From the NCBI RefSeq assembly GCF_000317515.1, contig NC_019738.1:905501-969500 (forward strand): DNA of 64,000 nucleotides, written 5' to 3'. The position numbers were made by a program, and so were the translations under genes. This document shows positions 26,190 through 56,062 of the stretch, piece after piece. Source of the stretch: Allocoleopsis franciscana PCC 7113. Its GTDB lineage: Bacteria > Cyanobacteriota > Cyanobacteriia > Cyanobacteriales > Coleofasciculaceae. How positions within the stretch are numbered: position 1 is the first letter of the stretch; each line of letters begins with the position of its first letter. The notes below the pieces were generated by a model. It was not told where the DNA came from. It was given only the letters and a program-made list of their open reading frames with translations, and did no database searches.

Positions 26190-26217
26190 AATTAATCAAG
26201 AAAACATTATCAATAAA

Positions 26218-28455: not shown

Positions 28456-30148
28456 TGAGTGGGAATGGGTTCAAATTCCTAACGGTGAATGGGCTGCTGT
28501 AGCTAATTACATAGATCATAAGCTGCCTGAGTATAACTCTAACCCTTTGATTCAGGCACTCCCTACTATGTTCTCTCCACGGGAATTTGCCAGACGTGTA
28601 GCAAAACTTCCTCAATTTCATCCACAAGAGAGGGAACTTGAGCCGCATTACAGATTTCATTGCATTGAAAGGCTATCTAGATATTTCGATCCACAGAATA
28701 GGTCTGTAGAGCTACAGCAGCAAATTTGTGTGCTAATCATGGAGGGGTATTTGGGTCGGAATCTCTTAAAGCCGGATTACGCACGTCGTTCAAGGCAAAT
28801 TTATCAGGCAATTGAGGCAGGAGACGGGAATAATCTGGAAAACTATGTAGACGTTCCTACTTCTGCATCTAGTTTGACGCTAATCGGTCCATCGGGAATA
28901 GGGAAGACCACCAATCTGATTAACATCCTTAACCTGTATCCCCAAGTAATCATCCATCCAGACTACAGCGTATATCAACTTGTTTGGCTAAAAGTTGACT
29001 GTCCCCATGCAGGTTCATTGAAGGGTCTATGTACAGATATCTTTTTGGCGGCTGACCGATTACTCGGCACTAATTACTTTAAAAAATTTGGTTCCAAGGG
29101 TAATTCTGAAGATTATATGCTGGCGCAGGTTGCCCAACTCGCTCATACTCAACATCTTGGAGTACTGATTATTGATGAAATGCAAAACCTTGCTAAAGCT
29201 AAAAGAGGTCGCGATGAACTGTTGAACTTCCTTGTAAAAATGGACAATATCATTGGAGTTCCAGTGATTCGCATTGCTACCAATGAGGCTTTCCCAATTT
29301 TTCGGGAAAATTTTAGGAATGCGAGAAGAGCGATAGGGAAAGCAGGAGTTGTTTGGAATAGGATGCTGAAAGAGCGGGAATGGGAACAGTTTTTAATAGG
29401 AATTTGGCATTATCAATGGACAAATAAATTTGTTCCTATTACTGAGAAAATTAACGAAAAACAAACAATCAATGAAGAAATTAATGAAGCTTTCTACTAC
29501 GAGTCTCAAGGAATTATTGATATTGCAATCAAGCTTTATAAGATGGTGCAATGGCGAGCTATTTCCCTCAGGAGTGAAGAAATTACCGTCGAGCTGATTC
29601 ACCGAGTTGCCGAAGAGGGACTACAGATAGTCAAACCAATGCTGGATGCTATTCGGTCAGGGAAAAAGGAATCGATGGAAAAATATGGAGATATCGATCT
29701 TCTGGACACGACCGAATATCGTAATCAATGCTTGGCTGAGCTGAAATCAAAGGAATTAGAAGAGATTCGTAAACTAGCTCAGAACCAACAGAGAAAAGGA
29801 AATGTATCGGCAACCCTAAGTCATGTAATCCTTAAGCTTATGGAGTTGGATGTAGAGCCTGCTCTAGCAAAGGAGTGTGCTGATAAAGTTGTTGCTTCTA
29901 AGGATGAAGATACGGACATTCCCTCACTAGTAAAAGAGGCTTACATCCTAGCGTTGCAAGGCGCAAAAGTAAAAGAAAATCAAACGAAGTCAAGCAAGCG
30001 GAAAACAAAGTCTAAACCAAAGTACCAAGACAATGATATCCGTCTTCTTGTCGAAAATGCTAAAAAAGATAAAAAACCTGCTTATGTGTATTTGGAATCG
30101 GCAGGAATTATTAAAAATCCAGTTCAAGATTTTATAAAAACAGTGTAG
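28442..30148 (+). CDS. tnsC: TnsC AAA+ ATPase regulator
   Basis: This 568-residue AAA+ ATPase links target recognition to the transposase. Walker A is GPSGIGKT (149-156) and Walker B is VLIIDE (241-246). The start is GTG, within the end of tnsB, so translation is probably coupled. The C-terminal 100 residues are Lys-rich and end FIKTV. It polymerises on DNA and recruits TnsA/TnsB in characterised relatives. tnsD starts five bases after its stop. Confidence 0.93.
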   Translation: MDRNDEWEWVQIPNGEWAAVANYIDHKLPEYNSNPLIQALPTMFSPREFARRVAKLPQFHPQERELEPHYRFHCIERLSRYFDPQNRSVELQQQICVLIMEGYLGRNLLKPDYARRSRQIYQAIEAGDGNNLENYVDVPTSASSLTLIGPSGIGKTTNLINILNLYPQVIIHPDYSVYQLVWLKVDCPHAGSLKGLCTDIFLAADRLLGTNYFKKFGSKGNSEDYMLAQVAQLAHTQHLGVLIIDEMQNLAKAKRGRDELLNFLVKMDNIIGVPVIRIATNEAFPIFRENFRNARRAIGKAGVVWNRMLKEREWEQFLIGIWHYQWTNKFVPITEKINEKQTINEEINEAFYYESQGIIDIAIKLYKMVQWRAISLRSEEITVELIHRVAEEGLQIVKPMLDAIRSGKKESMEKYGDIDLLDTTEYRNQCLAELKSKELEEIRKLAQNQQRKGNVSATLSHVILKLMELDVEPALAKECADKVVASKDEDTDIPSLVKEAYILALQGAKVKENQTKSSKRKTKSKPKYQDNDIRLLVENAKKDKKPAYVYLESAGIIKNPVQDFIKTV

Positions 30149-30152
30149 TCTT

Positions 30153-32045
30153 GTGGTTAGTTTTTTTCCTTCCCCCTATCCAGATGAAATCCTGTACAGT
30201 ATTTTAGCTAGATATCATATTAGAAGTGGCAATACTAGTTTCAAAGTAACACTTAGAGAGCTTTTCAATGTACCAAGAAACACAGCTACGGCTGACCTAC
30301 CCTGTAATTTGGATCTTTTGGTTAAGAACTTACCACTATTATCAAAGCACACAGTTGAGGAGCTTATTCAAAAGCATACACTCTACCCCTTCTATGCACC
30401 TTTTCTCCCGCTAGAAAGAGCAAGTCTAGTTTTACAGTCTATGCGTTCGGAGTCTGGGAGTGACATTCATAGAAGAGCAGGTATCATGGCAAGTTCGGTT
30501 ACTACGCCGAGATACTTCAGGTTTTGTCCTCTTTGTCTGAAAGAAGATCTGCAAGAATATGGAGAAGCCTACTGGCATCGCCTGCACCAGACGCCAGGTG
30601 TCTTAGTCTGTCCAGTACACGCTATTCCTCTAAGTGATAGCATCGTCCCTATTCAGGGCTTTAACAGGCATCAGTATTGTGCTGCTAGCCTACAAAACTG
30701 CCCAATTGATGTACCTAGGGAAAGTTATGGTAGCACCTTAAAGAAATTACTGCTGCTAGCTAAAGATATTTGTTGGTTAATAAACAGCGACATTCCCCAC
30801 CGGGAACCAAGTTGGTTTCGCAACCAATATAAAGCTCTTTTAATTGAGAGGGGTTTAGCTTCTACCGTCATCCATAAGACGTACCAGAAGAATTTGGCAG
30901 ACAGTTTTCTCTATTTTTATGGTTGTGAATTTCTTGAAAGTCTCAATTCAGGAGTGAGTTATGACGAGCCACACGGCTGGTTGTTCAAACTGCTACATAA
31001 AAGGGTAGATTCATCTCATCCTGTGCGACATTTGTTAATGATTAGGTTTCTAGCGACCTCCATTAAGGAATTTTTCACAACCAATTATGACTATAGACCA
31101 TTTGGTGAAAGTCCTTGGCTTTGTTTAAATGTCGCCGCTACTCATTACCTCAAGCCAGTGGTAACCAATCTTGTCATAAGTCGAAACCACGATCGAAACT
31201 ATGATGCTAGCAAGCCTGTTGGTACTTTTCGGTGTTCGTGTGGATTTATCTATACCAGAACAGGGCCAGACAAGAGGGAGGATGATAAGTATCGAATTGG
31301 TTGCGTTAAAGCCTACGGACAGGTCTGGGAAGAGAAACTTAGAGAATTAGTAGAAACTAGAAAGCTGAATGTTCACGAGATTGCAAGTCAACTCAATATC
31401 GATCCCAGGACAGTCAATCGACATGCTATGTTACTGGGACTTGAAATTCCGTGGAAGTCTTTACCGCAGAGTTTAGAGGAACCCTCAACGGATAATAAGA
31501 CTTGTCTAGAGGAAATCAGAGCCAAACATAGGAGCGATTGGAAAGTCTTACAAAAACAGCATAAAGGGCTATCGAAGACTGCTTTAGGAAGGCTTGCTTC
31601 ATCTACATATGAATGGTTACGCAAAAAGGATAAAGAGTGGTTCGATCAAAACTCACCGAAATCAAGCATTACTGTTACAAGTAATAATAGAGTTAATTGG
31701 GAGAAGAGAGACGAGCGAATTCTTGCTCAGGTTAAGAATGCAGTGCAACTAACCCTTAGTGCTGAGAAGCCTATCAGAATAACGATTGGTAGGATTGGAA
31801 GCACTATTGGACAGCTTAGACTACTCGAACAGCAGCTTGATAAAATGCCTCTCACAAAAGCCTACTTGGAGTCAGTTACAGAAGAAGTAGAAGATTATCA
31901 AGTTCGACGTATCAAATGGGCAATCAATAAACTTGAAGAATTGGGAGAAGAAGTTACGCTTTCAAAAACTCGTATACTTGCTGGTCTTCGGTCAAGTCAA
32001 TCCCAAAAAGTTAGAGTAATTCTTGACAGTGAACTTCGGAAATGA
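30153..32045 (+). CDS. tnsD: TnsD-type TniQ target-selection protein
   Basis: This 630-residue protein, from a GTG start, has the TniQ opening FFPSPYPDEILYSILARY and the zinc-binding set C125, C128, C153, H156 (FCPLCLKED ... VCPVHAIPL). The long C-terminal half contains two helix-turn-helix-like stretches (VHEIASQLNIDPRTVNRHAM; KTRILAGLRSSQ). Long TniQ proteins of this TnsD type read DNA sequence directly. The element sits at the glmS attachment site, so this is presumably the glmS-reading protein. It is the last gene of tnsABCD. A related but broken copy lies at 46718. Confidence 0.92.
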   Translation: MVSFFPSPYPDEILYSILARYHIRSGNTSFKVTLRELFNVPRNTATADLPCNLDLLVKNLPLLSKHTVEELIQKHTLYPFYAPFLPLERASLVLQSMRSESGSDIHRRAGIMASSVTTPRYFRFCPLCLKEDLQEYGEAYWHRLHQTPGVLVCPVHAIPLSDSIVPIQGFNRHQYCAASLQNCPIDVPRESYGSTLKKLLLLAKDICWLINSDIPHREPSWFRNQYKALLIERGLASTVIHKTYQKNLADSFLYFYGCEFLESLNSGVSYDEPHGWLFKLLHKRVDSSHPVRHLLMIRFLATSIKEFFTTNYDYRPFGESPWLCLNVAATHYLKPVVTNLVISRNHDRNYDASKPVGTFRCSCGFIYTRTGPDKREDDKYRIGCVKAYGQVWEEKLRELVETRKLNVHEIASQLNIDPRTVNRHAMLLGLEIPWKSLPQSLEEPSTDNKTCLEEIRAKHRSDWKVLQKQHKGLSKTALGRLASSTYEWLRKKDKEWFDQNSPKSSITVTSNNRVNWEKRDERILAQVKNAVQLTLSAEKPIRITIGRIGSTIGQLRLLEQQLDKMPLTKAYLESVTEEVEDYQVRRIKWAINKLEELGEEVTLSKTRILAGLRSSQSQKVRVILDSELRK

Positions 32046-32603
32046 TGTGAGCTATCTTGGTAGCAAACATAGGATTATATAAGTTAGCTTTTTAGATGCC
32101 GATAGGCGTTGAGTAGTCACTCAGAGTTTCTGTGCAAGTCCTTCACGGAATGTCAATGAGTGTCAACTCTGTTTTCTTGACCGACTATGAAAGCGAACCT
32201 ATCCCCGCAGGAGGTTCGGTTATTACGAATTTAACTTTCAGGAAAACCGAATAAACAAACTTGCTTCCATTAATCAGCGATCGCGTCACCTACCACCAAT
32301 TAACTTAATTTCGATCTGCGGCTCAACCTCTGTTTCGACTTGAGCGATCAACCTCTTAACTACTAGGCTTTTACTTACGACGGATACGCATATTCTGAAG
32401 AGAAAGTCAAGTAGAAAAGCCAGAAATGCTGGATGTGATTTGCGCCTTGCTTAGCGGGAACACTAAGGGAGTAGCCAATCAAGCAAAGCGATCGCGCTCA
32501 AGAAAGGAGCAGTGCTCTGTTGGCTAGCGCACTGCCTTTAGGAGCGATCGCTAGCTTAAAATGGTATCCGGTCAACTCCCGACTCAAGAGGAACTCACAG
32601 ATA
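32046..32603. other. Gap after tnsD with one hairpin
   Basis: No gene was recognised. A 7-bp stem (CGAACCT at 32194-32200, AGGTTCG at 32212-32218) is present without a T-tract. No CRISPR-like repeat and no tracrRNA-like structure was seen. The last 130 bases are rich in HIP1 sites and lead into the hsdM remnant. Confidence 0.45.
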
Positions 32604-33590
32604 GTGCCACGTCGCAGCAAGCAGCAGCCCACTAAATCCATCAAAACAGCGGAACAAACTGAACTGAAATTCCCGGCACCAGAGGATGAGAAGCTGGAAG
32701 TGTCGGCGATGGAGACGTGGCTGTGGGATGCAGCGTGTACGATTCGCGGCACCACTGACGCGCCGAAGTTCAAGGATTTCATTCTGCCCCTGGTGTTCTA
32801 CAAGCGCCTCTCGGATGTGTTTGATGATGAGTTTGCTCGTCATGTGGAGGAGTTTGGGGATGAAGAGACTGCCCATGAGGTGATTGAGGCTGACCATAAG
32901 GATGCCATAGCGACGGGACGCAAAGACCGGATGGTGCGCTACTACATCCCGGATGAGTATCGTTGGCAGAGAATTCGCAATCACGGTGAGGAGGGGTTGG
33001 GGGAATTTATCACCACTGCGACTCGGAAAGTGACGGAACTCAACCCGGAACTGAAGGGTGTGCTGGATATTAAGGACTATAACGAAACTCAAAGCGGTCA
33101 GCGGACTCTGGGGGATGACCGTTTGGCAGCGTTGGTGGAGGTGGTGAGTCGCCATCGGTTGGGGTTGAAAAACACGAGTCCGGATGTGTTTGGGGATGCC
33201 TACGAGTATCTGCTGCGGAAGTTTGCGGAAGGGCAAGGGCAGAGTGCGGGGGAGTTTTTGACGCCGCCAGAGGTGGGTTGGTTGATAGCGGAAATTATTG
33301 ACCCTGCGCCGTACACTACAATCTATGACCCGACTTGTGGTTCTGCGAGGTTACTGATTAAACCGCGTTTGGTGTTTGAGCGCAATTACCCCGACCAGAA
33401 AAGCAAAGCGCCTAAACTCTACGGTCAGGAACTCAATCATACGACGTTCGCGATCGCTAAGATGAATGCGGTCATCTACGATTTTCGCGATTCCAGTTTG
33501 GAGATTGGGGACACGTTTCTCAATCCCAAGTTTGTGGAGACGGGTAAGGGGTTGATGCGCCATGACTACGCGGTAGCTAATCCGATGTGA
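32604..33590 (+). pseudogene. hsdM: Type I restriction-modification methylase HsdM, C-terminally truncated
   Basis: About 328 residues remain from a GTG start (open frame begins 32520). The N-terminal HsdM domain is complete (WLWDAACTIRGTTDAPKFKD, FILPLVFYKRLSDVFDDEF). The methylase core begins with AGEFLTPPEVGWLIAEI and motif I YDPTCGSARLL. The protein stops at YAVANPM, exactly inside the catalytic NPP(F/Y) motif, after ANP. The last 150-200 residues, including the specificity-subunit contact region, and the hsdS gene are missing. It is therefore inactive. Confidence 0.85.
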
Positions 33591-34723: not shown

Positions 34724-35503
34724 ATGAACCCAATGGCATTTCGCGCCTCTAAAAGTGTGCATATTGTATTTCCTCCTGATAACCGACAGCAAGTTATAGA
34801 GACACGTGTCTTCCCATATTCGGCTATCGGTCGATTAACCATGCTGTTTCCAAATGGGAATTTGTACTCTGGGACTGGCACTTTAGTCGATAACTGGCAT
34901 GTCTTGACAGCCGCACACAATCTGTGGGGGAAAGATATGGGCGGAAACGGCTTTGCAACAAAAGTTACCTTCAGTGCAGCACAGAATCGTAACAATGTTC
35001 CTTTTGGTCAAATATCTGCGACACGCGCATGGATTACAGAAGATTATCAAACAACAGCCCCTCCAAGCCCACTTTTGGAAAATGATGACGTGGGTGACTG
35101 TACCAAATACATTTGGGATTTCGGGCTTGTTCGTCTTAGCCAAGCGGTGCAACCCGATGCTGGATATTGCAGCTTTAAGTCTTATGATGACAAGACATTA
35201 ACGAATAATAACATCCGTATAACAGGTTACCCTGGAGATCAGACTGCTGGCACAATGTGGACTGCAACAGGTCGAGTTACACTCTCCAATGATGATGATT
35301 TGCTATTCTACAACAAAATATCTACCTACAAAGGTCAAAGTGGCGCGGGTCTGATGATACCAGATAATAACACATTTGTCATTTGCGGCATTCATGTTGC
35401 TGGATCTACGAAGCTAAATACCAACTTTGCGGTGCGGCTAAACGATACTAACGTAGCCACGATTAAACAATGGCAATCTTCACCTGTAATAGCTCAGACT
35501 TAG
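34724..35503 (+). CDS. Trypsin/V8-like serine protease
   Basis: This 259-residue protein has a chymotrypsin-fold catalytic triad: His in VLTAAHNLWG (about residue 64), Asp in YIWDFGLVRL (about 128) and Ser in YKGQSGAGLMI (about 206). The arrangement resembles glutamyl-endopeptidase/V8-type enzymes. No signal peptide is obvious, so it may work in the cytosol, as in conflict systems that use trypsin-like effectors. It lies between the remnants of hsdM and hsdR, where hsdS and the start of hsdR should be. A trypco2-like gene occurs 9 kb away in the same element. Confidence 0.75.
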   Translation: MNPMAFRASKSVHIVFPPDNRQQVIETRVFPYSAIGRLTMLFPNGNLYSGTGTLVDNWHVLTAAHNLWGKDMGGNGFATKVTFSAAQNRNNVPFGQISATRAWITEDYQTTAPPSPLLENDDVGDCTKYIWDFGLVRLSQAVQPDAGYCSFKSYDDKTLTNNNIRITGYPGDQTAGTMWTATGRVTLSNDDDLLFYNKISTYKGQSGAGLMIPDNNTFVICGIHVAGSTKLNTNFAVRLNDTNVATIKQWQSSPVIAQT

Positions 35504-35821: not shown

Positions 35822-37747
35822 ATGAATGGAAGCAGCAGGGAACCGTCTACAACAACCGTCACCTTTATCGGCTTCACCGGGACACCCATCGATAAACTCT
35901 CCGAAGGCAAAGGCACGTTCAAAGTCTTCGGCGCGGAAGACGAACAAGGCTATCTCGACAAATATTCCACTGCCCAATCCATTGAAGATAAAACCACCCT
36001 CCGCCTCCACTACGCCCTCGCCCCCAACGACTTGCGAGTAGACCGAGAAACCCTAGAGAAAGAATTCCTCAACCTCAAAGAAGCCGAAGGCATCAGCGAC
36101 CCCGCCGAATTAGACCGAATTCTCAGGAAAGCCGTCAAACTCAAAGAACTCCTCAAATCAGACAAACGCATCGACAAAATCGCCCAAGCCGTTGCCCAAC
36201 ACTTCTGGGAAAACGTCGAACCCTTGGGCTTCAAAGCCTTTCTCGTCGCGGTAGACCGGGAAGCCTGCGCCCTCTACAAACAAGCCCTCGACAAATACCT
36301 ACCGCCCGAATATTCCCGCGTCGTCTATTCCCCCAGTAACAGCGACAGCGAAACCCTCAAACAATATCACCTGAGTGAGGCACAAGAGAAGCAAGTCCGC
36401 AAAGCCTTCGCCTCCAAGTGCATCGTCTGGGTTCCCCTGCAACCTTCGGCTGAAGCGTTAACCTTCATCGAATCCCGCCCCGACGATTTTGTCTACGACC
36501 AGACACAAGGCACCCTCACTGTCACAGGCTACTTTTCGGAATCTGACCGCCAAACCCTAGAACGCCTCTGCCCCGAACCCAAATCAGCCGCCGCCATTCG
36601 GGACTTATACGAAGACTATACCAAGCGCTTGCCCAAGATTCTCATCGTCACCGAGAAGCTGCTGACAGGCTTTGATGCCCCCATCCTTTACTGTATGTAT
36701 CTCGACAAACCGATGCGAGACCACGTACTGTTACAGGCAATCGCCCGTGTCAACCGCCCCTATGAGGATGAGGACGGACTCAACAAACCCTATGGCTTCG
36801 TCCTGGATTTCGTCGGCATCTTTGAACAACTAGAAAAAGCCCTCGCCTTCGACTCCGATGAAGTCAACGCCGTCATCAAAAACGTGGAAGTCCTCGAACG
36901 CCTGTTCGCCACCCTGATGACCGAAACCGCCCCGCAATACTTACCCCTAACCCAAGGATTCGATGACAAGGCAAAAGAAGCTGCCATTGAAGCCTTTGCC
37001 GAGAAAGAAACCAGAGAGGAGTTTTTCAAATTCTTCCGCCAACTCCAAACCCTCTACGATGTCCTCTCCCCAAACCCTCGCCTGCAACCCTACCTCAACG
37101 ATTACCAGGCACTCGTCAAACTCTACAGTCTCATCCGCAACGCCTACACCACCCGTCCCTACGTCGATAAAGAAATCACCACCAAGACCAAGGAATTAGT
37201 CCGACAAAACACCGACATCTACAACCTAGAACTCCCAGACGCGATTCAAAGCCTCGGTGCAGCCGAACTCGAACACCTCAAACAAAGCGACACCTCGGAT
37301 ACCGTCAAAGTCCTGAACCTGCGAAAAATGCTAGCCACCGTCGTCCGCGACGAAAGTGCCGCCAAACCCTTTCTGCTTTCAATTGGCGATCGCGCTGAAA
37401 AGATAGCCGAAGCTTACGAAAACCGACAAATCGACACCCAGGTAGCCTTATCCGAGTTTGAAAAGCTAGCTCAAGAATACATCAATGCCAATGCCGAACA
37501 ACAGCAGCTCGATGTCGATGAAAACACCTATGCTATTCATACCGTCCTCAAGCTAGCGGTTGAAGACCTAACCGTAGACCAAGCCAGAGAAATTAACGCT
37601 ATCTTCAGCCACTTCCCAGATTACCAGTGGAACGAACAGCAAAAGAGCGAACTGAGGAAAGAACTTTATAAAGTCGTGCGTCCCCTCGTCGGTGCAAGTC
37701 GTATGATTAATGTCACCAACACCCTTTTGAAACTCCAGCGAGTATGA
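35822..37747 (+). pseudogene. hsdR: Type I restriction subunit HsdR, N-terminally truncated
   Basis: The 641 residues correspond to the second half of HsdR. The frame opens just at the motor-domain motif FIGFTGTPIDK and includes KILIVTEKLLTGFDAPILY and LLQAIARVNRPY (helicase motifs V-VI). The C-terminal assembly region ends TNTLLKLQRV. The N-terminal nuclease domain and the Walker A/B motifs are missing, so it cannot translocate or cut. The ATG at 35822 is fortuitous. The following gene overlaps by ATGA. Confidence 0.85.
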
Positions 37748-38157: not shown

Positions 38158-38466
38158 TCAGCGTGTTGTTCTTTCGTCACTAATTGTTTGACGCGGAATA
38201 GCTGAAGACTCTCTCCTATTAACAAGTCCTCTCTGAGCAAGTTGTTTTTTGAGTAAAAGCATTTCTTCTTTGCGTCTTTGATCAAGTTTTCTGTTAGGTA
38301 GTGCTGCCAGTAAGTATATAGTGGCTAGAGGCCAATAAAGAAGTGAAACAAAAAGCCACAAAAAACCAGAATAACCCATTTTTTTTGCATTTCTAAATAC
38401 TAATATACTAAGAATAATTAAACTAATACTTGATTGTATCAACAAACGTATATATGCACTTTCCAT
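38158..38466 (-). CDS. Small two-TM protein, last gene of the CHAT-kinase operon
   Basis: This 102-residue protein has two transmembrane helices (RLLIQSSISLIILSILVF and FLWLFVSLLYWPLATIYLLA) and a basic C-terminal tail. It matches no named family. It is the last gene of a six-gene minus-strand operon, 18 bp after the PH-like gene. It may anchor the complex at the membrane or be its membrane effector; this is inference from position. Confidence 0.5.
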   Translation of the reverse strand: MESAYIRLLIQSSISLIILSILVFRNAKKMGYSGFLWLFVSLLYWPLATIYLLAALPNRKLDQRRKEEMLLLKKQLAQRGLVNRRESSAIPRQTISDERTTR

Positions 38467-38484
38467 CTTATAGCCTCCTCATAA

Positions 38485-38883
38485 TTAACTCACTACAAAA
38501 GATTTTGCTACAGTTAAATATTCTTCTAATTGATTTGCAAAAATCTTTTTATTTGTAGATTTAGTAAGTAGAAATCTAACAACGCATTTTTTACCATCAG
38601 GAAGCCGATAAGTAATTTCATGTTTCTTACGCCAAAGTTTAGGTTTCTTATACTTCAATATAGTAGAGTATGGCAAAGTTCTAGTTGTGGGAATATATAG
38701 CACTTTTTGAAAAAAGTAACCTAGAATCCATAATTCAAACTTAGGCATATTTCCTTGAAGAATTAATGCATTCTCATTTAAAAAAATGAAACCTTTCCCA
38801 TGAAAACTTAGATTAAGTTGTTTACGAGAGCCAAAGAGGTGAATATCTCCACTAGAGTCTAAGTATGTTACTTCAAATCTCAT
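38485..38883 (-). CDS. PH-like domain protein
   Basis: This 132-residue protein is predicted to be beta-rich with a C-terminal helix (NKKIFANQLEEYLTVAKSF). The pattern fits a bacterial pleckstrin-homology-like fold: the KGFIFLNENALILQG strand pair, LPYSTILKYKKP, and a final helix. It starts two bases after the kinase stop codon. In the CHAT-kinase operon it could be a lipid- or peptide-binding adaptor. The fold assignment is by pattern only. Confidence 0.45.
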   Translation of the reverse strand: MRFEVTYLDSSGDIHLFGSRKQLNLSFHGKGFIFLNENALILQGNMPKFELWILGYFFQKVLYIPTTRTLPYSTILKYKKPKLWRKKHEITYRLPDGKKCVVRFLLTKSTNKKIFANQLEEYLTVAKSFVVS

Positions 38884-38885
38884 AG

Positions 38886-40508
38886 TTACACTCCTACAAT
38901 TTGTTCACATTTATCTTTTAAATCAGAAAATTCAAAACTGTAGCTAGATATAGAAAGATAGCTATTACATACCTGTATACATTCTTCATATAAACCAGCT
39001 TCAAAATAGCCATTGGCTAAAAGTAAAGTTGCACCAAAATTATATGGATCTACCTCAAGTGTGAGTTTTGCTTCAATAATTGCTTCTTCAATTTTTCCTT
39101 CTACTAAAAGCAGCTCAATATACTTTTGACGAACATTCATATTTCCCCAATTGATGTTTATAAATTCCTTAAGAAGTTGAAGTATTTTTTTGCTATCTCG
39201 TGAGGCTTCTCGTAAAGTCTTATGAAGAAGTAGATTTTCTTGTAAATGCCTAACTTTTGTTAAAAAATGTACAGAAATAAAAGAGAAAGGAAGTGTTACA
39301 TAAAAACTAATGAAATTAAATCCGTTGCTTATACTATTAGCCGCTATCTCATCTCCTCCTACAGAAATGTAAATTACTTGGTAAATAAATCCTGAGATAA
39401 TTAAGCCTACTAAAAAACCAACTATCAAAATAAAAATACCGCTTATGGTACGGAAACGACTATTTTTTTCTTGTCCAAAGAAAAAAAGGATTACTCCCGT
39501 CATTGAGAATGCCTCTCCTACTATCCCATCTGGAATAGTCTGTAAAAAAGCAAATATCCAGAAAAATATCCAGCTTTTTTTTAGCTCTTTAATCTCTTTT
39601 TCCTCCCAAGTAGGAATCGAAAAATTTGAACTATTCCTTTGGTCTAATTGTTGAGATGTAATTTCTGTAATTGCAGATTTAGACCAATTTTTTAATTCAT
39701 CTCTAAGCTCATTGGCAGAAGTAGTACGGTTGATTAGTTCCTTTTCGAGCAGATGAGAAAGAATATTTTCTAGTTCAGGGTCAATTTCTCCTAAAGTTTC
39801 GCTAGGGGCTTGTGGAATACTAAAGAATATTTTCTTGGAGAGATTCTCTTCTGTGTCTCCTTCAAATGGTTTAATACCTGTTAGCAGAGTATAAGCACAA
39901 ACACCCAATGCCCATAAATCTGACTGCTCGCAAGGTCGTCCTCTCAACTGCTCAGGTGCCATATAGTAATAAGTACCAGCAATACGCTTGACAGTTTGAA
40001 TTCCTTCTGCCATGCGACTGATTCCGAAATCTACTAATACAAATCTTCGGTTGTGGTCATCACCTGTAACTAAAATATTACCTAATTTTATATCTCGGTG
40101 AATTATATTGTTAGCATGAGCATGAGCTAAAGCATCTGCCATTTGAGCCAGGAAAACTTTGATTTCTTCTACTGTGAGTTTCCCTCGTTGTTCTAAATAG
40201 GATTGCAAATCAATACCATTAATATATTCTGTAATTAGAACGAGTTTTCCAGCATGGATAAAATAATCTTCAAGATTGATAATGTTTGGATGACTTAATC
40301 TAGAAAGTAATTCAGGCTCAACTAAAAGTGAATCAATATTTCGGGTATCATCTATAATTTTTAATGCTAAATTTTCATGAGGTTGCTCCTCGTTGTATGC
40401 CTTGTAAACGATTCCATGACTACCGCGACCGATTTCTTCTAAGAGAATATATTGATTGATACGAACAGTACTTATCTGTGTAGTTATAGTTTGAATATTA
40501 GTCATCAA
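38886..40508 (-). CDS. Hanks-type Ser/Thr protein kinase with TM and helical-repeat C-terminus
   Basis: This 540-residue protein has a complete N-terminal kinase domain: glycine loop GRGSHG (27-32), K50 in LALKI, HRDIKLGN (137-144), DFG (160-162) and GTYYYMAPEQ. After about residue 290 come three or four membrane segments (IFFWIFAFLQTIPDG onward). A cytosolic TPR-like tail (LEVDPYNFGATLLLANGYFEAGLYEECIQVC) follows. It overlaps the end of the FHA gene by 11 bp. FHA domains bind phosphothreonine, so the upstream gene product is its likely partner or substrate. Confidence 0.85.
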   Translation of the reverse strand: MMTNIQTITTQISTVRINQYILLEEIGRGSHGIVYKAYNEEQPHENLALKIIDDTRNIDSLLVEPELLSRLSHPNIINLEDYFIHAGKLVLITEYINGIDLQSYLEQRGKLTVEEIKVFLAQMADALAHAHANNIIHRDIKLGNILVTGDDHNRRFVLVDFGISRMAEGIQTVKRIAGTYYYMAPEQLRGRPCEQSDLWALGVCAYTLLTGIKPFEGDTEENLSKKIFFSIPQAPSETLGEIDPELENILSHLLEKELINRTTSANELRDELKNWSKSAITEITSQQLDQRNSSNFSIPTWEEKEIKELKKSWIFFWIFAFLQTIPDGIVGEAFSMTGVILFFFGQEKNSRFRTISGIFILIVGFLVGLIISGFIYQVIYISVGGDEIAANSISNGFNFISFYVTLPFSFISVHFLTKVRHLQENLLLHKTLREASRDSKKILQLLKEFININWGNMNVRQKYIELLLVEGKIEEAIIEAKLTLEVDPYNFGATLLLANGYFEAGLYEECIQVCNSYLSISSYSFEFSDLKDKCEQIVGV

Positions 40509-42717
40509 AAACCTCCGTAACCATATCTCCTATTGATGCTTCAATGAGAAAATTATCTTGAACTTCAGTAGGGGGATTAATCCTAATTACATTACTAGTT
40601 TTTGCTCCACTTAATTTAACTCTAATTAGTACTTCAAGAGTGATAACACCAGCAATTAAGAGCCTGTCCCCTGATTGCAAGCGAGAAGGTTCATTTTTGG
40701 TCAATATTTTTCCATTTAAGCTAGTCTTTCCTCCACTTTTATCAATTACAAAATATTCTGTATTAATTCGTTGAATTTCTAAATGCCTTCGACTAATGCA
40801 AAGGCTCTTTTTGTCTGAACCTGGAACTCTGATAATTACGTCGTTACCCACATTGTCAGAAACATTTTGTTTGCGGCGTTGACGACCAATAGAAATCGTT
40901 TCCAATCCATACGGTGCTTGATAAGCGTAAGGAGTACCTAGAATTCTGAGATATAGTAATTTGGATGCGTCTGTTGAGTGATTAAGTGTTCTATTAATTC
41001 CGTTAAGTGACTCTACTGTTATTGCTCCCCCTCCAGACTCTATCTGAGCCAGGACAACCTTTTTTAATTCAATAATTTCTTTATAGACAGGGAAAGACAT
41101 TGATGTAGACTTTAACAATTCATTTGTTTTTGCGAGTGCTTGAGCTAATTTACCGGACTGAGCTAGTTTACGCGCTTCATCTAAATATGACTTTGCTTCA
41201 AATATTTTTTCTGTTCGTTTTTTCTGAAAATCATCGTAATCTTGCTGAAGTCTATTTCTGTAGCGTTCAATTATCCAATAACGAGTTAACCTCGAACTAA
41301 GAACTACTACAGACAAAATAAACACTGAAGGTAAATATAAAAAACTAGTTTTATTCCATTTAAATATAGGTGTACTATATATTGGTATACCTGCCGAACT
41401 AGGAGCGGGATGCCAATAAGTTACTTTCCATAACAATATTCCTAGAAAATTACTCTTTTCTATGCCTAGCCAAAAATCCTTTGAATTTTGTTGATTAATT
41501 TTATTTCTTATAATAGATTCTACTGATATATCTGGATTAATATAATCACTGATTTCAACGTTTTTTTTATTAAAAAGACTGGATTTGTTCAAAAAATATT
41601 CTGTTATCTTATCCTTTTGTAAAGACCTTGTAAAAAGTATTTTTACTGATTTATTTGTAGGAAAATTTGATGCTGCCTTTGCTGAAAACCACGAGTGACT
41701 GTCTGGATTTTTAAGCTCTGCGATACACTCATCTATCAACTTACGATCAATTTGATTTATGTTAGGTCTAAAACAAGTAAAGTTTAAAATTATCCCTATA
41801 CCTACAATGAATAAACTACAGAAAATATTTACTTTTCTCATATAGGGGGGTACATCACCTTCTCCTGGTGGTTTTGGTTCTGGTTCCATCCCACCTTGTG
41901 AAGGTTCTAAGTCATTCTCTGTCAGCTTTGTCTCACCCAGAGTTTCTTTGAGTACTATGCTTGGTATAGTTACTCCAACTCTTAAAAAATCGAAGGATAG
42001 TTCACCGCCGTGTTCAAGTAGTTGTTCCTCATTGTCTGTACCAATGAAATGAAAGCCGTCAGTTTCTCTTATAAGGCTACCTAAAGACTTTCCTTCTCTA
42101 AAATTAGGAAATCTTACAACCTCATTAGAGTTCGTACCAAGCAATACTTTGCCCTTTGGTGCAATTATATATCTCGCTACTTCTTCGCCATCAAAGTTGT
42201 GTTGAATAAGTACACCTTGAGATAACAAATCATCTTTGTTATGTTCAAATAAAAAAGATGGAGAGGAACCTAACTGAATTTGTGTTCCCACAAAAATTTG
42301 CATTGGCTCTTCTATCTTTATCCCATTAACGTATGTTCCATTAACTGATTTTAAATCATCAATCCAGTAGGCATTATTTTTTGATTTATAGTAAATAACA
42401 GCATGCAGCTTGCTAATTTCTTTAGAATCGTCATCTATCCAAAAACCATAGGTTGCTGAACGTCCAATAACAGCATTGTTGTCAAAGACACAGTGGACTT
42501 CATTATTAGTCCCCTTTAAATTCAGAATGATTCTATTCTCTCGGAGAAGTTCAACCTTATCTTCAAATTCAAAAATCTCTTTTTCTACTTCTTTAAGTTG
42601 TTGCTCCCGCTGAAGCTTAATTGCAGGATTGGTTTCCAAAATGACAGCTTCTCGCAAAAGACTACGCTTTTTCAATAAGCTTTCGTACTGTTCTTGAATT
42701 TCAAGGTCTCTATCCAT
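40498..42717 (-). CDS. FHA-domain membrane protein with effector-associated coiled coil
   Basis: This 739-residue protein starts with a coiled coil (residues 5-60) containing ETNPAIKLQREQQ. A first FHA domain follows (about 62-158: VIGRS, SKLHAVIYY, SVNGTYVNG), then a degenerate FHA-like or beta region (about 165-255) and a membrane segment near 292-312. An extracytoplasmic-size loop leads to a second membrane segment near 455-475, then a helical region and a C-terminal FHA domain (about 620-735: SIGRQRRKQ, CISRRHLEI, SLNGKILT). The N-terminal coiled coil matches the C-terminus of the adjacent CHAT protein (EVNPAVQLQREVQ), so the two probably bind. It is flanked in the operon by the CHAT and kinase genes. 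Confidence 0.75.
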   Translation of the reverse strand: MDRDLEIQEQYESLLKKRSLLREAVILETNPAIKLQREQQLKEVEKEIFEFEDKVELLRENRIILNLKGTNNEVHCVFDNNAVIGRSATYGFWIDDDSKEISKLHAVIYYKSKNNAYWIDDLKSVNGTYVNGIKIEEPMQIFVGTQIQLGSSPSFLFEHNKDDLLSQGVLIQHNFDGEEVARYIIAPKGKVLLGTNSNEVVRFPNFREGKSLGSLIRETDGFHFIGTDNEEQLLEHGGELSFDFLRVGVTIPSIVLKETLGETKLTENDLEPSQGGMEPEPKPPGEGDVPPYMRKVNIFCSLFIVGIGIILNFTCFRPNINQIDRKLIDECIAELKNPDSHSWFSAKAASNFPTNKSVKILFTRSLQKDKITEYFLNKSSLFNKKNVEISDYINPDISVESIIRNKINQQNSKDFWLGIEKSNFLGILLWKVTYWHPAPSSAGIPIYSTPIFKWNKTSFLYLPSVFILSVVVLSSRLTRYWIIERYRNRLQQDYDDFQKKRTEKIFEAKSYLDEARKLAQSGKLAQALAKTNELLKSTSMSFPVYKEIIELKKVVLAQIESGGGAITVESLNGINRTLNHSTDASKLLYLRILGTPYAYQAPYGLETISIGRQRRKQNVSDNVGNDVIIRVPGSDKKSLCISRRHLEIQRINTEYFVIDKSGGKTSLNGKILTKNEPSRLQSGDRLLIAGVITLEVLIRVKLSGAKTSNVIRINPPTEVQDNFLIEASIGDMVTEVFDD

Positions 42718-42735
42718 AAGAATCTCCTTAAGGAT

Positions 42736-44343
42736 TTAGCCAAGCTGTTGTTCAATCTCGTCAATCTGTGACTTGAGCTTATTAAGTTCTCTCTGTGTTT
42801 CTTCTATTTGCACCTCTCGCTGAAGCTGTACAGCAGGATTGACCTCAGTAGCAAGATCCTTACGCAACCTACGCAGCTTTTGACCTAATAAATCGTAAAG
42901 CTCTTGTAACTCATCCCATTCCCGCTGCAAGCGACGGCGCTGACTAGCCGTTAAGCTGCTTGATGCCTGAAGAATATCAGATGTTTTATTTGTCTGCAAA
43001 TCAGTAGTGAGGGAAATAGCTGCTGAATTAATTTCAGCATCCACTTGAGAAATGGCAAACAATTGACCGCCTTGATTGTCTCGCCAGCGTAGATAGAGAA
43101 CTGGACGATACCACTGATTTCCTTCCACTCCCATCGCCTCTCGCCCCTGACTGACAGCCACCGCCAGGGAATTCTTTTGTCCTAGAGACCAATAAAACTG
43201 CTCGGCAAATTGAGTTGCTGCCTCTACGCTGATTGAGTATTGCATTGCCACTGCTGCTGGTATACGTTGAGCAACCAGATTTTGAGCAGCTCCATTAAAC
43301 ACTGATTCCCCTGTCACCGCCATACCAGATTGACAAGCACTAAGTACGATTAAAGCTACTCCTCCCGTTTGACTGGTGCCATCACTATAGCTGCTCTGTC
43401 GCAACAGGACTCCTAATTCCGCAGCACTAACGTAATCTGCTTCACCTTTTTCATTCTCGAATACCAGAAACCCTTGAGGTTTGGGTAACACCGAATTACA
43501 AACTCGGCATCGCTCAACCTTGATACTCTTATGGATTACCCTACACTGTTGGTTAGAACAGCGCTTGCCATACAACCCATGTCCATCAAAATGCAGGACG
43601 TGAGGAGCTGTATCTCCTCGATGTTCAGTGAGATAGGTTCGTAACTCCTTGAGGGTAGGATACTCCAGCTCGCTTAAACGAATATGTCCAGCTTCACTTG
43701 CCTTTTCCAATCCTTTGTGAATTGCTTGCTGTTCCTGCTTAGAGAGCCTTTGGAGTCCTAGTTCTGGGTCAGATGCTGCTGAGGACACCAGTAGCACATT
43801 GACCTGTTCCACAGGTGGTAAGTTAGGTGGAACCGTGTCGTGGGCAATGTATCGGGAAAAGCTAACTTGGTGATGCAACAGAAATCGCTGCCCATCATGC
43901 AGCAGTTCCCACGGATAATCTGCTAATCGCGATCGCTGCACGACATCTGCTTCAAATTTAAGTTGAATGTGCAGTTGAGTATTTTTATCCTCAGCCACAC
44001 TGAGAGACTTTTGCAAAGCTTTTTCTACCCGACTTCCTGGTGGAAAAAGGGACTGATACAGCGCTTTGCCAATGTTGACAAGAAAACTCGGATGGAAAGC
44101 ACTGTAGTCAGAAGCTAAAATACTGGCTGCTACCATCCAATCCTGTTCTCTATCCCGGCTAAAGCTTTCTGAGTGGAAGCTAGTACTCTCTAAAGTCTTA
44201 ATGAGAGTAATCCGCCAATCTTGAGTGCCTTCCCAAAAAGGCAATTCCGACTCCGTTTCCCCTTCTCCAGCCGAAGATTGGGTCACGATTGCCTTAAAAC
44301 GAGTCCCATCAACAGGCGAGAGGTAGAGTTCAAATAGTTCCAC
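42736..44343 (-). CDS. CHAT-domain protease with zinc-ribbon insert
   Basis: This 535-residue protein has a caspase-like CHAT domain. Catalytic candidates are H255 (LHFDGHG) and C337 (LSACQSG). Between them is a zinc-ribbon-like insert with C262, C267, C279 and C282. The N-terminal 230 residues resemble the region before CHAT domains in cyanobacterial proteins (YPWELLHDGQRFLLHH). The C-terminal 65 residues form a coiled coil with EVNPAVQLQREVQ, a module shared with the FHA protein. CHAT proteases are predicted or shown effectors that cleave target proteins in conflict systems. It lies 18 bp before the FHA gene. Confidence 0.8.
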   Translation of the reverse strand: MELFELYLSPVDGTRFKAIVTQSSAGEGETESELPFWEGTQDWRITLIKTLESTSFHSESFSRDREQDWMVAASILASDYSAFHPSFLVNIGKALYQSLFPPGSRVEKALQKSLSVAEDKNTQLHIQLKFEADVVQRSRLADYPWELLHDGQRFLLHHQVSFSRYIAHDTVPPNLPPVEQVNVLLVSSAASDPELGLQRLSKQEQQAIHKGLEKASEAGHIRLSELEYPTLKELRTYLTEHRGDTAPHVLHFDGHGLYGKRCSNQQCRVIHKSIKVERCRVCNSVLPKPQGFLVFENEKGEADYVSAAELGVLLRQSSYSDGTSQTGGVALIVLSACQSGMAVTGESVFNGAAQNLVAQRIPAAVAMQYSISVEAATQFAEQFYWSLGQKNSLAVAVSQGREAMGVEGNQWYRPVLYLRWRDNQGGQLFAISQVDAEINSAAISLTTDLQTNKTSDILQASSSLTASQRRRLQREWDELQELYDLLGQKLRRLRKDLATEVNPAVQLQREVQIEETQRELNKLKSQIDEIEQQLG

Positions 44344-44366
44344 GAGTTTGCTAGCTGAGTATTAAA

Positions 44367-44735
44367 TTAGAACTGGTCGCTGACGTTGTCGCCGCCACCT
44401 TTAAAGGTTCCTTCTATATTTTGCTCCACTAGTTTTTCCAGTCGTTCCGGATGACGTTTTCTGTAAAGATTAAGCAGCGTCTCTTTATTGATGACGGGAG
44501 AAAGCTTCACTTTCACCTTCTGCACGTCATCCCGGCTACCTCCCCCACCCAACTCCAGAACGTAAATTTTTATTGCTCCCTTGCCTTCCTTCTTGACTGT
44601 CACTTGAAGTTCAAGTTCCACCTCATCCACACTCAACAGAGGGATGTCTGTCTCACCTTCTAGGGAGGGAGCAAGTAGTTCCCGCTTCACCTGCTCAATC
44701 AGTTCCGCCAGTCCGATGCTATTTTCTTCTGCCAC
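44367..44735 (-). CDS. Trypco2-like (trypsin-co-occurring) protein
   Basis: This 122-residue acidic protein has an N-terminal helix (GLAELIEQVKREL) and a beta-rich middle (VDEVELELQVTVKKEGKG; AIKIYVLELGGGGSRDDV; VQKVKVKLSPVI). It resembles the trypsin-co-occurring domain 2 described for NTP-dependent bacterial conflict systems, where it accompanies trypsin, CHAT or caspase effectors. Its function is unknown and it may be a constant adaptor. It is the first gene of the six-gene operon, 23 bp before the CHAT gene. Confidence 0.65.
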   Translation of the reverse strand: MAEENSIGLAELIEQVKRELLAPSLEGETDIPLLSVDEVELELQVTVKKEGKGAIKIYVLELGGGGSRDDVQKVKVKLSPVINKETLLNLYRKRHPERLEKLVEQNIEGTFKGGGDNVSDQF

Positions 44736-44888: not shown

Positions 44889-45134
44889 TCATTCATCTAC
44901 TTCAATGCCGTAATTTGCAAACAGAGCAGAAACAGTTATGTCCAGCGCTTTGACTAACTTTTCCATAGTCTCTAGCGAAGGGTTCAGTTCCCCCCTCTCA
45001 ATATTGGAAATATAGGTACGGTGAAGCTCAGCCCGTTCGGCTAACTCCTCTTGAGATAAATCCAGTTCTCGCCGTCTGCGTCTTATCGCTTTTCCAAAGC
45101 GCTGTTTGATACTTAGTTGATTGTTTTGACTCAC
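44889..45134 (-). CDS. XRE-family helix-turn-helix regulator
   Basis: This 81-residue protein is a single XRE/Cro-type HTH with SQEELAERAELHRTYISNIERGELNPSLETMEKL, the size of controller (C) proteins of restriction systems and other small repressors. It lies 153 bp upstream of the CHAT operon on the same strand and is divergent from the gene at 45233. The 98-bp intergenic region is AT-rich and would hold its operator. It could control the operon, the divergent genes, or both. Confidence 0.8.
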   Translation of the reverse strand: MSQNNQLSIKQRFGKAIRRRRRELDLSQEELAERAELHRTYISNIERGELNPSLETMEKLVKALDITVSALFANYGIEVDE

Positions 45135-46717: not shown

Positions 46718-48285
46718 ATGGTTAGCTTTTTCCCAAAACCGTATCCCGATGAAATTTTATACAGTGTCATTGCACGCTACCAGATTAGAAGCGGTAACAC
46801 GAGTCCGAAAGTAACGCTCCGAGAATTATTTAACTCAGCTACTACTGTAGCTACGGCTGACTTACCTTCTAACCTTAATTCTTTAAGTGAGAGCCTACAA
46901 CCTTTTTCCAACTATACGGTAGAAGTGCTGATTGAAAGATACACCCTGTACCCTTTCTACAGCGTTTTTTTACCTCCGAACCGAGCTACTAGAGTGAAGG
47001 AGTCGCTGAAGGCAGAGTGTGGCAGTGATATTCACACTAGAGCTGGAATTATGGCAAGTTCCGTTACCATGCCGAGGTATTTCCGGTTTTGCCCCAATTG
47101 TCTAAAAGAAGATTTGCAAAAGTACGGGGAAGCCTACTGGCACCGACTACATCAAACGCCTGGAGCGCTGGTTTGCCCAGTCCATGCTGTGGCGTTGCCA
47201 GATAGCATAGTTCCAGTCCAAGGCTTCAACAAGCATGAATATCAGGCTGCAAGCCCAGAAAATTGCCTGATTACTCACAACCAACCAATATACAGTAATG
47301 ACACTTTAGAGAAATTTTGGCGGCTGGCTCAAGATATCTCTTGGTTAATGAATAGCAAACTCTCTGCTCAAGAGCCAGATTGGTTTCGTAGACGGTATAT
47401 AGCTCTATTGATTGAGAAAGGTTTAGCGACGGCAACGGGTCGAGTTCATCAGAAGAGACTTCTTGATAATTTTATGTTTTTCTACGGGCGTGAAATGCTT
47501 GAAGCCCTTGACTCAATGGTGGATTACGAGGAGGAACACAACTGGGTATTTGGCATCGTTAGAAAGCATCGAAAATCATTTCATCCTATGAGACACCTAC
47601 TGATGATTAGGTTTCTCGCAGGCTCTATTGAAGAATTCTTCAACATAGATTACGATTACAAACCCTTCGGTGATGGACATTGGCTTTGTCTGAATGCTGC
47701 CGCCAACCATTATCTCCAGCCAGTTGTGACCGAATTGGCTATCAGTCTATGCTGTGATACCAAAAAACCTGTGGGTACTTTTCGGTGTTCGTGTGGCATG
47801 ATTTATTGTCGAACAGGCCCCGATGAAACCGAAGATGACAAATACCGAATTGGCAAAATTAAAGCATACGGTCAGGTTTGGGAACAGAAGCTTAGGGAAC
47901 TCGTAGAGATTCAACGGTTGGGTCTTCGAGCAACGGCAAGACGACTCAAGGTCGATGCCAGAACAGTCAATCGGTATGCCTTACGGCTAAACCTCAATAC
48001 CTCCTGGCAATCTTTCCAGGATAACGAAATAGTGCAGTCTCCAGAGCAGCCAGAGGGTGATGTCAACTCTACTGGTGAGAGCGAGACCAGACATCGGCAA
48101 AAATGGTTGACTCTACAACTTGAGCATCCAGAGGCGTCGAAGACAACTCTCAGGCAAATGGCTCCAGCTACCTATGCGTGGTTGTATAAACATGACAGAG
48201 AGTGGCTCAATCAAAATTCGCCGACATTGAAGGTGCCTGTTCCGGGAGCATCCCAATTTTGCAAGAAGGCAAGAGAACGGGAAGT
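46718..48285 (+). pseudogene. Second TnsD-like TniQ, interrupted by an insertion sequence
   Basis: About 523 residues of TniQ sequence remain. They are very similar to the tnsD at 30153 over the N-terminal half (FFPKPYPDEILYSVIARY; zinc set in FCPNCLKED ... VCPVHAVAL) and share HTH stretches (LRATARRLKVDARTVNRYAL). The frame then runs into IS sequence and stops at 48361. The last TniQ residues reappear after the IS at 49980, with about 70 residues lost between. The N-terminus is MVSFFP, as in tnsD. Confidence 0.85.
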
Positions 48286-48372
48286 TTATTCGCGATTTTT
48301 ACTCGCGAATAAAGGCCGACTAGGCGGATGTTGCCCTAACTGCGACAATTTAATTAGTTAGGGAGCCTCTTT

Positions 48373-49451
48373 ATGACAATGACACCAGAAGACAAAAAAC
48401 TTTTAGCCGACCATATCAAGGCGATAGCTAAAATTCTCTATAAAAATACTCCACAAGAGAAAATTGAGACGTTAGAGGGTATTGAAACAGCGGTGCGCGA
48501 CCAAGTGCTAGAACATGTCAGCCCCCAAATAACCTTTTTTTTATCGGAGAAAAGACGGGAACAGAATCGGGACGCATCCGAACGATAAGAAGTTGTGTGG
48601 GTCGGATAAAAATCACTCAAAAACAAGCGTCACGTTTAGGAATTGAGCCGTATCGACGGTTAAGTCCTCTTCTGGAAAAATGCTGTTTATTACTTGCAGC
48701 AAATGAATCATTTCAAGATGCAGAGAATGACCTGAAAGTCTTGACCGGGGTAGAAGTAGGTCACAGCACTCATCATCGCCAAGCCCAGAAAGTAGAGCTA
48801 TCGCCACCTAATATTAAACAAAAACTGACAGAAGTTTGTCTCGATGGTGGGAAAGTGCGTTTACGCTCACAGGAAAAAGGTAAACCCGCCTACTGGAAGG
48901 AGTATAAAACCGGACGACTACAAGGAATATATTACGGAGCCTTCTTTCAAGATAATTTTTCTCTAATTAATTGGGTGAACAGCCAAAACCTGGCTCGAAC
49001 CATTTATTGCTTGGGTGATGGACACGATGGGGTGTGGAACCTATTTGCACAAATAGCCGACGACCAGACCCGACAAGAAATTCTTGACTGGTATCATTTG
49101 AAAGAGAACCTCTATAAAATTCAGGCATCGAAAAAGTTTTTAGAACAAATCGAAGCAGATTTGTGGCAAGGAGTGGTCGAAGAAGCGATTAGTAAACTCC
49201 GGAAAACTAACTATGTCGGGGCTACTAACTTTATAAGTTATCTACGTAAACATAGGCATCGCTTAGTCAATTATATGTACTTTCAAGCCGAACAATTAAG
49301 TTCGATTGCTTCGGGAGCTGTAGAGTCTGCGGTCAAACAGATAGACAAGCGGCTACAAATAGTCGGCGCTCAATGGAAGTCCCAAAATTTACCGCAAATG
49401 CTGCAACTGCGGTGCGCTTATCTGAATCGACAGCTTGCTCCAAGCGCTTAA
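48373..49451 (+). CDS. ISKra4-family transposase in two frames (-1 frameshift)
   Basis: The first frame (48373-48588, 71 residues, MTMTPEDKKLLADHIKAIAK) and the second (48597-49451, 284 residues) together form one transposase. Reading in the -1 frame after the slippery heptamer T TTT TTA (near 48537-48543) gives EKTGTESGRIRTIRSCVGRIK, which joins smoothly to KITQKQASRLG. The catalytic part contains VCLDGGKVRLRS, IYCLGDGHDGVW and LDWYHLKENLYK. Programmed frameshifting is plausible, as some ISKra4 relatives have two overlapping frames. A single-base deletion or insertion cannot be excluded. Confidence 0.7.
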
Positions 49452-49530
49452 AAAACCCAAAAACAGTATGAAAAGAAGCACGCTGCTTTTTTTCGCGAGT
49501 TACAATCGCGAATAATTAGGATTTATCTTT

Positions 49531-49941
49531 ATGCCTCGAAAGACTTCCAAGGATATTGAGCGAGATAAACTCGCTCGATTTGAGCGTATTAAAAAGGCGA
49601 TAGCAGCGTTAGAAAAACAACAAAGACAAATATTAAAACAGGGTGAGCTGGCTCCATCCGGGGCTTGGGTAGCGCGTTATCAAGTTCGGCAAAATAATAA
49701 GAAATATTGGTACTACAAATTACAAGTGCCGACTCCATACTTCCCATGCGCGACCTCCGAAGAGTTGAGTAAATACAAGCATCTGGGGAAAGCTGGTACT
49801 ACTGACCATATAGATGCTGTCATGTCTGTTTTTAGGCGTTCTGTTATCGATGAGATACAGAAGCTCATCCGTTCCCTAGATGATTGCTTGCTGGATATTA
49901 CTTCTGGAGCCGAGCAGGAGGAAGAAAAACCGCAGGATTGA
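49531..49941 (+). CDS. IS passenger protein, DUF6788-like
   Basis: This 136-residue protein has a basic coiled-coil N-terminus (LARFERIKKAIAALEKQQRQ) and a central stretch (YQVRQNNKKYWYYKLQVP) similar to small proteins sometimes found with cyanobacterial transposases. It is enclosed by the second and third GCGA palindromes of the IS. Function unknown; regulation or DNA-binding support of the transposase is a guess. Confidence 0.45.
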   Translation: MPRKTSKDIERDKLARFERIKKAIAALEKQQRQILKQGELAPSGAWVARYQVRQNNKKYWYYKLQVPTPYFPCATSEELSKYKHLGKAGTTDHIDAVMSVFRRSVIDEIQKLIRSLDDCLLDITSGAEQEEEKPQD

Positions 49942-49979
49942 ATCTCCCGAAGTATTCGCGATTATTACTCGCGAATAAT

Positions 49980-50165
49980 GGCTGTCCCTTTATTTTTGCA
50001 CAATTGGGATGCTCCCAACTCGAAGAGCAGGGCAAAGAGGTTAAGCCCTGGAGGGTGATTCGGCTTGCTGGTTTACGAGAGGATTACTCCCAAAAAGTTA
50101 AAGCGGCTCTTGAGGATGAACTGAATAAATTGCGAACTTCCCCCACTGTGTCAAAAATTATTTGA
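49980..50165 (+). pseudogene. C-terminal remnant of the second TniQ
   Basis: The frame includes GKEVKPWRVIRLAGLREDYS and KVKAALEDELNKL, matching the last 40-60 residues of TnsD-type proteins, where tnsD has EEVTLSKTRILAGLRSSQSQ. It starts right after the IS palindrome and ends about 70 bp before the first repeat of the left end at 50234. About 70 residues are missing compared with an intact copy. Confidence 0.7.
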
Positions 50166-55684: not shown

Positions 55685-56062
55685 TTACATTGTTACAAAC
55701 TTTTGCGCTGCCTCGATTGCTGCCATCAACTCCGCTTGGCTACTAGCCTTCACCTTCAACTTTTTGCCATTCGCCTCTACTTCCATCTCAATTGCCTTCC
55801 CAGAAAGGCGATCACCTAAAAAACCGATCAAATTCCTTACATTAGCAGGGTTGACCTCAGTAGTTAGCATTCCCATAAGAAAACCACCTAAAGCCTTGTT
55901 GCCCTCTGGTGGGTTGGGATCAAGAATTCGCTCAACACTCTCAAGCTCATCCAATTCTTTCAACTGTTTTAGAAGTTTCTGAACTTCTATTTCCTGATCT
56001 TCAGGAGATAAGTCTGGATCGTTGAAATTAATTGTAACTTTAATGCTCGATCCCTCTACCAT
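55685..56062 (-). CDS. EACC1-like (effector-associated constant component) protein
   Basis: This 125-residue acidic protein has a beta-rich start (IKVTINFNDPD), a helical middle (EVQKLLKQLKELDELESVER), ALGGFLMGMLTTEV, and an end (KLKVKASSQAELMAAIEAA). This matches the constant component EACC1 that accompanies varied effectors (caspase, trypsin, CHAT) in predicted ternary conflict systems. It is the first gene of the pair with the caspase gene. Its biochemical role is unknown; it probably holds the effector in its inactive state. Confidence 0.7.
   Translation of the reverse strand: MVEGSSIKVTINFNDPDLSPEDQEIEVQKLLKQLKELDELESVERILDPNPPEGNKALGGFLMGMLTTEVNPANVRNLIGFLGDRLSGKAIEMEVEANGKKLKVKASSQAELMAAIEAAQKFVTM

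Follow-up and report, generated by a model that had tools for sequence, protein, structure and literature searches.

What is the function of a compact group of six genes, encoding an adaptor, a caspase-like protease, an FHA protein, a Ser/Thr kinase and two small proteins, which resides within a 64,000-nucleotide stretch of the Allocoleopsis franciscana PCC 7113 genome (hereafter the window, to which all positions refer), and do the products of these genes act as one unit? The original prediction was that a membrane-located protease is switched on under the control of phosphorylation, and the set was named as a candidate for a new system. Judged from sequence comparisons, the six genes probably constitute a bacterial self-defence or cell-death circuit.

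The operon and its mobile carrier

The operon lies on the minus strand of the window (38158-44735) and all of its ORFs are intact. The predicted arrangement of six same-strand genes with gaps of 23, 18, -11, 2 and 18 bp was borne out by the ORF positions; if the kinase starts at the ATG at 40505, its overlap with the FHA gene amounts to 8 bp (the gap of -11 bp corresponds to the ORF boundary at 40508). The first gene encodes a Trypco2 adaptor protein of 122 aa (44367-44735; PF19631, E 5.7e-18), the sole Trypco2 in the whole genome, and the second a CHAT caspase-like protease of 535 aa with a zinc-ribbon insert (42736-44343; PF12770, E 1.9e-20). These are followed by a 739-aa protein of the structure EAD-FHA1-TM-loop-TM-coil-FHA2 (40498-42717), which contains two FHA stretches (E 5.7e-27) and two TM segments (about residues 293-311 and 459-477) placed about 150 residues apart, and by a 540-aa Ser/Thr kinase (38886-40508; Pkinase, E 1.5e-51), which combines a Hanks kinase domain with a membrane region and a TPR-like tail. 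The final two genes encode a small protein of 132 aa with a putative PH/GRAM-like fold (38485-38883) and a two-TM protein of 102 aa (38158-38466).

All of the catalytic residues named in advance were located: H255 of the CHAT protein within HFDGHG, C337 within LSACQS, and D139 of the kinase within HRD. They are also kept in related proteins, i.e. H255 and C337, as well as Cys262, Cys267 and Cys279, are invariant across six aligned CHAT proteins (that of the window and five related ones), and the two relatives whose kinase is full-length both retain HRD. A PDB sequence search with the CHAT protein gave no match.

For the fifth and sixth proteins no convincing Pfam family was found. The description of the fifth as PH-like is weakly supported: its relative in genome G574 gave a weak GRAM match (E 0.0076), but the window copy has no Pfam match, a PDB sequence search with the profile of this protein returned nothing, and AlphaFold, run without an alignment, yielded poor models (mean pLDDT 38) of both this protein and the greater part of the FHA protein. 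A weak match of the two-TM protein to MASE2 was judged to be due to chance. Upstream of the operon, at a distance of 153 bp and on the same strand, lies a gene for an XRE-type HTH protein (44889-45134; HTH_3, E 6.6e-18), which is a possible regulator.

The view that the operon is carried by a transposon is supported by its setting. The gene glmS (23231-25129) is followed by the TnsA, TnsB, TnsC and TnsD genes of a Tn7-like element (25371-32045, plus strand), then by type I restriction remnants and then by the operon, which is thus cargo of a Tn7-like element adjoining glmS. A candidate pair of terminal repeats of this element (25154/50515) was dropped, as it did not exceed the best matches obtained by chance. 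The type I restriction system within the cargo looks broken, since a gene for a trypsin-like protein (34724-35503, plus strand) interrupts it between the hsdM (32520-33590) and hsdR (35822-37747) pieces. The window also contains a second TnsD-like gene with a curtailed C-terminus, whose 3' end overlaps an arm of a probable insertion sequence; the inverted repeats of the latter are 24 bp long and 92% complementary. These features occupy 46718-48361 and 48244-50016. Outside the Tn7-like cargo, a second caspase (Peptidase_C14, 843 aa; 53145-55676) and a 125-aa protein without a family (55685-56062) are encoded side by side on the minus strand.

A shared adaptor and a conserved threonine motif

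Three features had not been part of the original prediction: an adaptor common to the CHAT and FHA proteins, the two TM segments of the FHA protein and a TxxD in the tail of the two-TM protein. The adaptor is seen in related terminal segments of two operon proteins. The C-terminal 60-70 residues of the CHAT protein (about aa 462-534; 42741-42960, minus strand) are homologous to the first 60 residues of the FHA protein (42526-42717, minus strand), with 37% identity over 51 residues (E 3e-10; z 11.4 against shuffled sequences). The CHAT tail aligns over the full length of EAD9 (PF19962) at 21 bits, against a curated cut-off of 25, and the FHA-protein head gave no match to this family; we therefore refer to the adaptor as EAD9-like. 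According to the AlphaFold model, the adaptor of the FHA protein is a hairpin of two helices with a break at Asn-Pro (residues 11-50, pLDDT 85-89). An adaptor profile searched against the whole 8-Mb genome matched the CHAT tail and the FHA head only; both copies had been included in building the profile, and the informative part of this result is the absence of other matches. EADs have been predicted to act as homotypic couplers between core proteins and enzymes, EAD9 being placed among those that recruit signalling parts (Kaur et al., PMC7159879). Because the two adaptors are homologous and present nowhere else in the genome, the CHAT tail and the FHA head probably pair with each other.

The second feature that may link the gene products is found in the tail of the two-TM protein, which contains the sequence RQTISD (Thr94-x-x-Asp97). 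A phosphorylated threonine in the context pT-x-x-D is the canonical FHA-binding motif (PMC6375734). RQTISD is invariant in all four available copies of the protein (effectively three lineages), the preceding part of the tail being variable, and none of the few other TxxD sequences in the six proteins of the window is conserved in every relative. Between G574 and the window, this peptide differs at three of six codons, all synonymously, while the flanks diverge, which suggests that selection acts on it. The charge distribution of the protein moderately favours a cytoplasmic location of the tail. No cognate phosphatase or sensor for the kinase/FHA circuit was found.

Interchangeable proteases on a syntenic core

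Among 386 genomes sampled across the phylum, the FHA protein was found in the genome of the window only, and one other genome matched the FHA domain alone. A denser sample of 389 genomes of the order yielded four relatives (G589, G557, G574 and G609), the last of which consists of fragments only; a profile search with the two-TM protein recovered the three relatives that retain this gene, together with one marginal partial match. Searches of plasmids with the FHA and PH-like proteins and a scan of viral contigs with the FHA protein gave no match. The FHA, kinase, PH-like and two-TM genes follow one another in this order in G589, G557 and G574, thus forming a four-gene syntenic core. The relatives are 46-57% (FHA protein), 43-47% (PH-like protein) and 56-60% (two-TM protein) identical to the window proteins, and the intact kinases of G589 and G557 are 62-64% identical. 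Conservation in other genomes, proposed at the outset as a check (scattered neighbourhoods counting against the prediction), holds for the core, but all six genes together were encountered in the genome of the window only.

It is the region in front of this core that differs. In G589 it encodes a trypsin-like protein with this adaptor at its end, the only part that resembles the window CHAT protein (53% identity over 74 aa). In G574 a CHAT domain, distantly related to that of the window, is fused directly to the FHA protein, at the place of most of the adaptor. Three protease arrangements are thus joined to one core, twice via the adaptor and once via fusion, and this provides the strongest evidence that the protease and the kinase/FHA core belong to one circuit.

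All four relatives (L023-L026) carry damage to the protease, FHA or kinase gene, for the most part to one of the first two. FHA1 of G589 is interrupted by a single in-frame TGA, and the truncated trypsin-like gene of this genome is abutted by a TnpB-type gene; G557 has lost its front and contains stops, and a deletion in G574 extends from the middle of the FHA gene into the kinase gene. The kinase, PH-like and two-TM genes are still open in G589 and G557. This rarity and damage would fit a costly or transient mobile system; all four relatives being damaged, selection on the whole circuit is not evident in other genomes. In the genus of G557, a divergently oriented gene for an AAA_35-NACHT-membrane protein lies beside the core or its remains (L023 12902-16072, L024 3812-6715 and L026 10982-13873).

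The Trypco2-CHAT pair, in turn, occurs elsewhere with various backs: NACHT (Nostoc C057 plasmid), VMAP (G328), FGS (G360) and a short tail (G320). It is therefore a known interchangeable front, which in the window is joined to an apparently undescribed core. The same pair is present at the VMAP loci L009 and L011, and in G376 it precedes VMAP, an AAA (MoxR-like) gene and a third gene whose product has an FGS domain at its end (the MoxR-like and third-component assignments were made by reading the sequence, with no family search). When the whole collection was scanned with the CHAT protein of the window, a single weak match was obtained, in a Solibacteraceae MAG. A close relative of this protein resides on the Nostoc plasmid, where Trypco2 and a CHAT-NACHT-TM fusion are encoded together with an alpha/beta hydrolase (L005 1-4755). 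In G320 (L008, L012) the pair lies at a contig end, and its CHAT protein carries a different, unrelated short helical tail, possibly another adaptor.

A proposed phosphorylation-gated switch and its alternatives

With reasonable, though not high, confidence, we regard a membrane-tethered, phosphorylation-gated protease switch as the most likely explanation of the operon. Its core would be composed of the membrane Ser/Thr kinase, the double-FHA membrane protein, the PH/GRAM-like protein and the two-TM protein. A signal, sensed perhaps by the inter-TM loop of the FHA protein or by the membrane/TPR part of the kinase, would activate the kinase, which would phosphorylate Thr94 in the RQTISD tail of the two-TM protein. 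An FHA domain could then dock on the resulting pT-x-x-D, and the clustered FHA protein would gather the CHAT protein via the matching EAD9-like helical hairpins. Crowding may switch the protease on, with Trypco2 as its usual partner, and cleavage of a target by the activated CHAT protein would probably result in dormancy or death of the infected cell. The model draws on the gene set, the conserved core, the homology and exclusivity of the adaptors, the exchange or fusion of the protease and the conserved TxxD, and from these we infer the phosphorylation, FHA binding, protease activation, trigger and role in defence. The syntenic core, the protease swap, the CHAT-FHA fusion, the shared adaptor and the TxxD lend good support to the proposal of phosphorylation-controlled protease activation at the membrane. 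The switch model offers predictions at the level of single residues (T94, FHA residues, C337, D139 and the adaptor hairpins).

The same wiring could serve ordinary physiology (envelope stress or differentiation) instead of defence against phages or mobile elements, and the TM and TPR parts of the kinase, together with the inter-TM loop of the FHA protein, would suit envelope sensing. We consider such a role rather unlikely, since the operon is Tn7-like cargo beside restriction-modification remnants, is distributed patchily (four of the 389 genomes besides its own), shows protease swapping and decay in its relatives, and has a protease/adaptor front common to predicted conflict systems. It is less probable still that the kinase is the toxic effector, acting on host translation factors in the manner of abortive-infection kinases, with the CHAT protein releasing or degrading a restraint. 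The kinase matches the PADLOC models mad6 (E 3e-66) and PD-T4-6 (E 1.5e-55), which might point to such an activity, but only through its generic kinase domain; in addition, its gene overlaps that of the FHA protein, and the proposed substrate is encoded within the same operon. The persistence of intact kinase genes beside a broken protease or FHA gene in G589 and G557 would agree with an effector kinase, but fits a harmless upstream kinase equally well.

Finally, the Trypco2-CHAT pair could belong, as a satellite, to a VMAP/MoxR/vWA or STAND system located elsewhere in the genome, the four downstream genes being unrelated to it. Other genomes do indeed contain such pairs linked to VMAP, NACHT or FGS modules, but in this genome the sole adaptor partner is encoded by the adjoining gene; moreover, the adaptor pair and the order of protease before core recur in G589, and CHAT and FHA are fused in G574, which makes this reading very improbable. 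Chance adjacency of front and core, as well as coupling of Trypco2-CHAT to a distant core, were rejected.

How does a protease switch of this kind relate to known systems? In predicted bacterial cell-death systems with caspase-like proteases, gating is mostly attributed to NTPases. Trypco2-CHAT is known from the VMAP ternary conflict systems (Kaur et al. 2020, PMC7159879), with which the operon shares this front (its adjacent Trypco2 and CHAT genes correspond to the Trypco plus peptidase front of that class), adaptors on both the protease and a core protein, and interchangeable proteases. It contains, however, no VMAP, MoxR, vWA, STAND or GTPase component, and the VMAP, MoxR AAA ATPase and vWA families had no match among the six operon proteins or the tested neighbours; the core consists instead of the kinase and the FHA, PH/GRAM-like and two-TM proteins. 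Because the class-defining core is absent, the operon falls outside the VMAP ternary class. In the wide sense, an EAD-coupled system has one adaptor on a core component and another on a neighbouring enzyme, as is the case here (FHA head and CHAT tail). The NTPase regulatory core required in such systems (STAND, MoxR or GTPase) is absent and the kinase stands in its place; we regard the operon as a variant of the EAD-coupled conflict systems with a kinase/FHA core.

No description of such a core was found in the open-licence literature. The claim of a new system is to be narrowed: the Trypco2-CHAT front is a known module, and only the core of kinase and FHA protein, with its wiring, appears to be new, taking the place of an NTPase core. 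We tentatively suggest, as a somewhat less secure idea than the switch itself, that a phosphothreonine relay (kinase, pTxxD membrane tail and FHA scaffold) may represent a new class of core replacing NTPases, in which adaptor-mediated clustering would activate a freely exchangeable caspase or trypsin protease. If true, this phosphorylation-gated version would parallel eukaryotic kinase/FHA signalling.

In the threonine pathway of T6SS, PpkA phosphorylates the membrane protein TssL and Fha binds the phosphothreonine (PMC3953482). The combination of kinase, phosphothreonine-bearing membrane protein and FHA recruitment, shown there, is the one proposed here, but the operon lacks a secretion apparatus and PppA, and its output would be a protease joined by an adaptor. 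Neither secretion apparatus nor phosphatase families were found in the operon or the tested neighbours, apart from a distant, unrelated PhoD-like gene. Trypco2 also adjoins a CHAT-TIR protein at the DGR 2 locus of Thiohalocapsa (PMC10907252), where, in contrast to the operon, the DGR target has a TIR domain and a kinase/FHA core is not reported. The likeness to MADS is that of the Mad6 and PD-T4-6 kinase domains, and among ten proteins scanned the kinase alone matches a MADS model; the hsdM piece near the operon is a type I restriction remnant, not a MADS methyltransferase.
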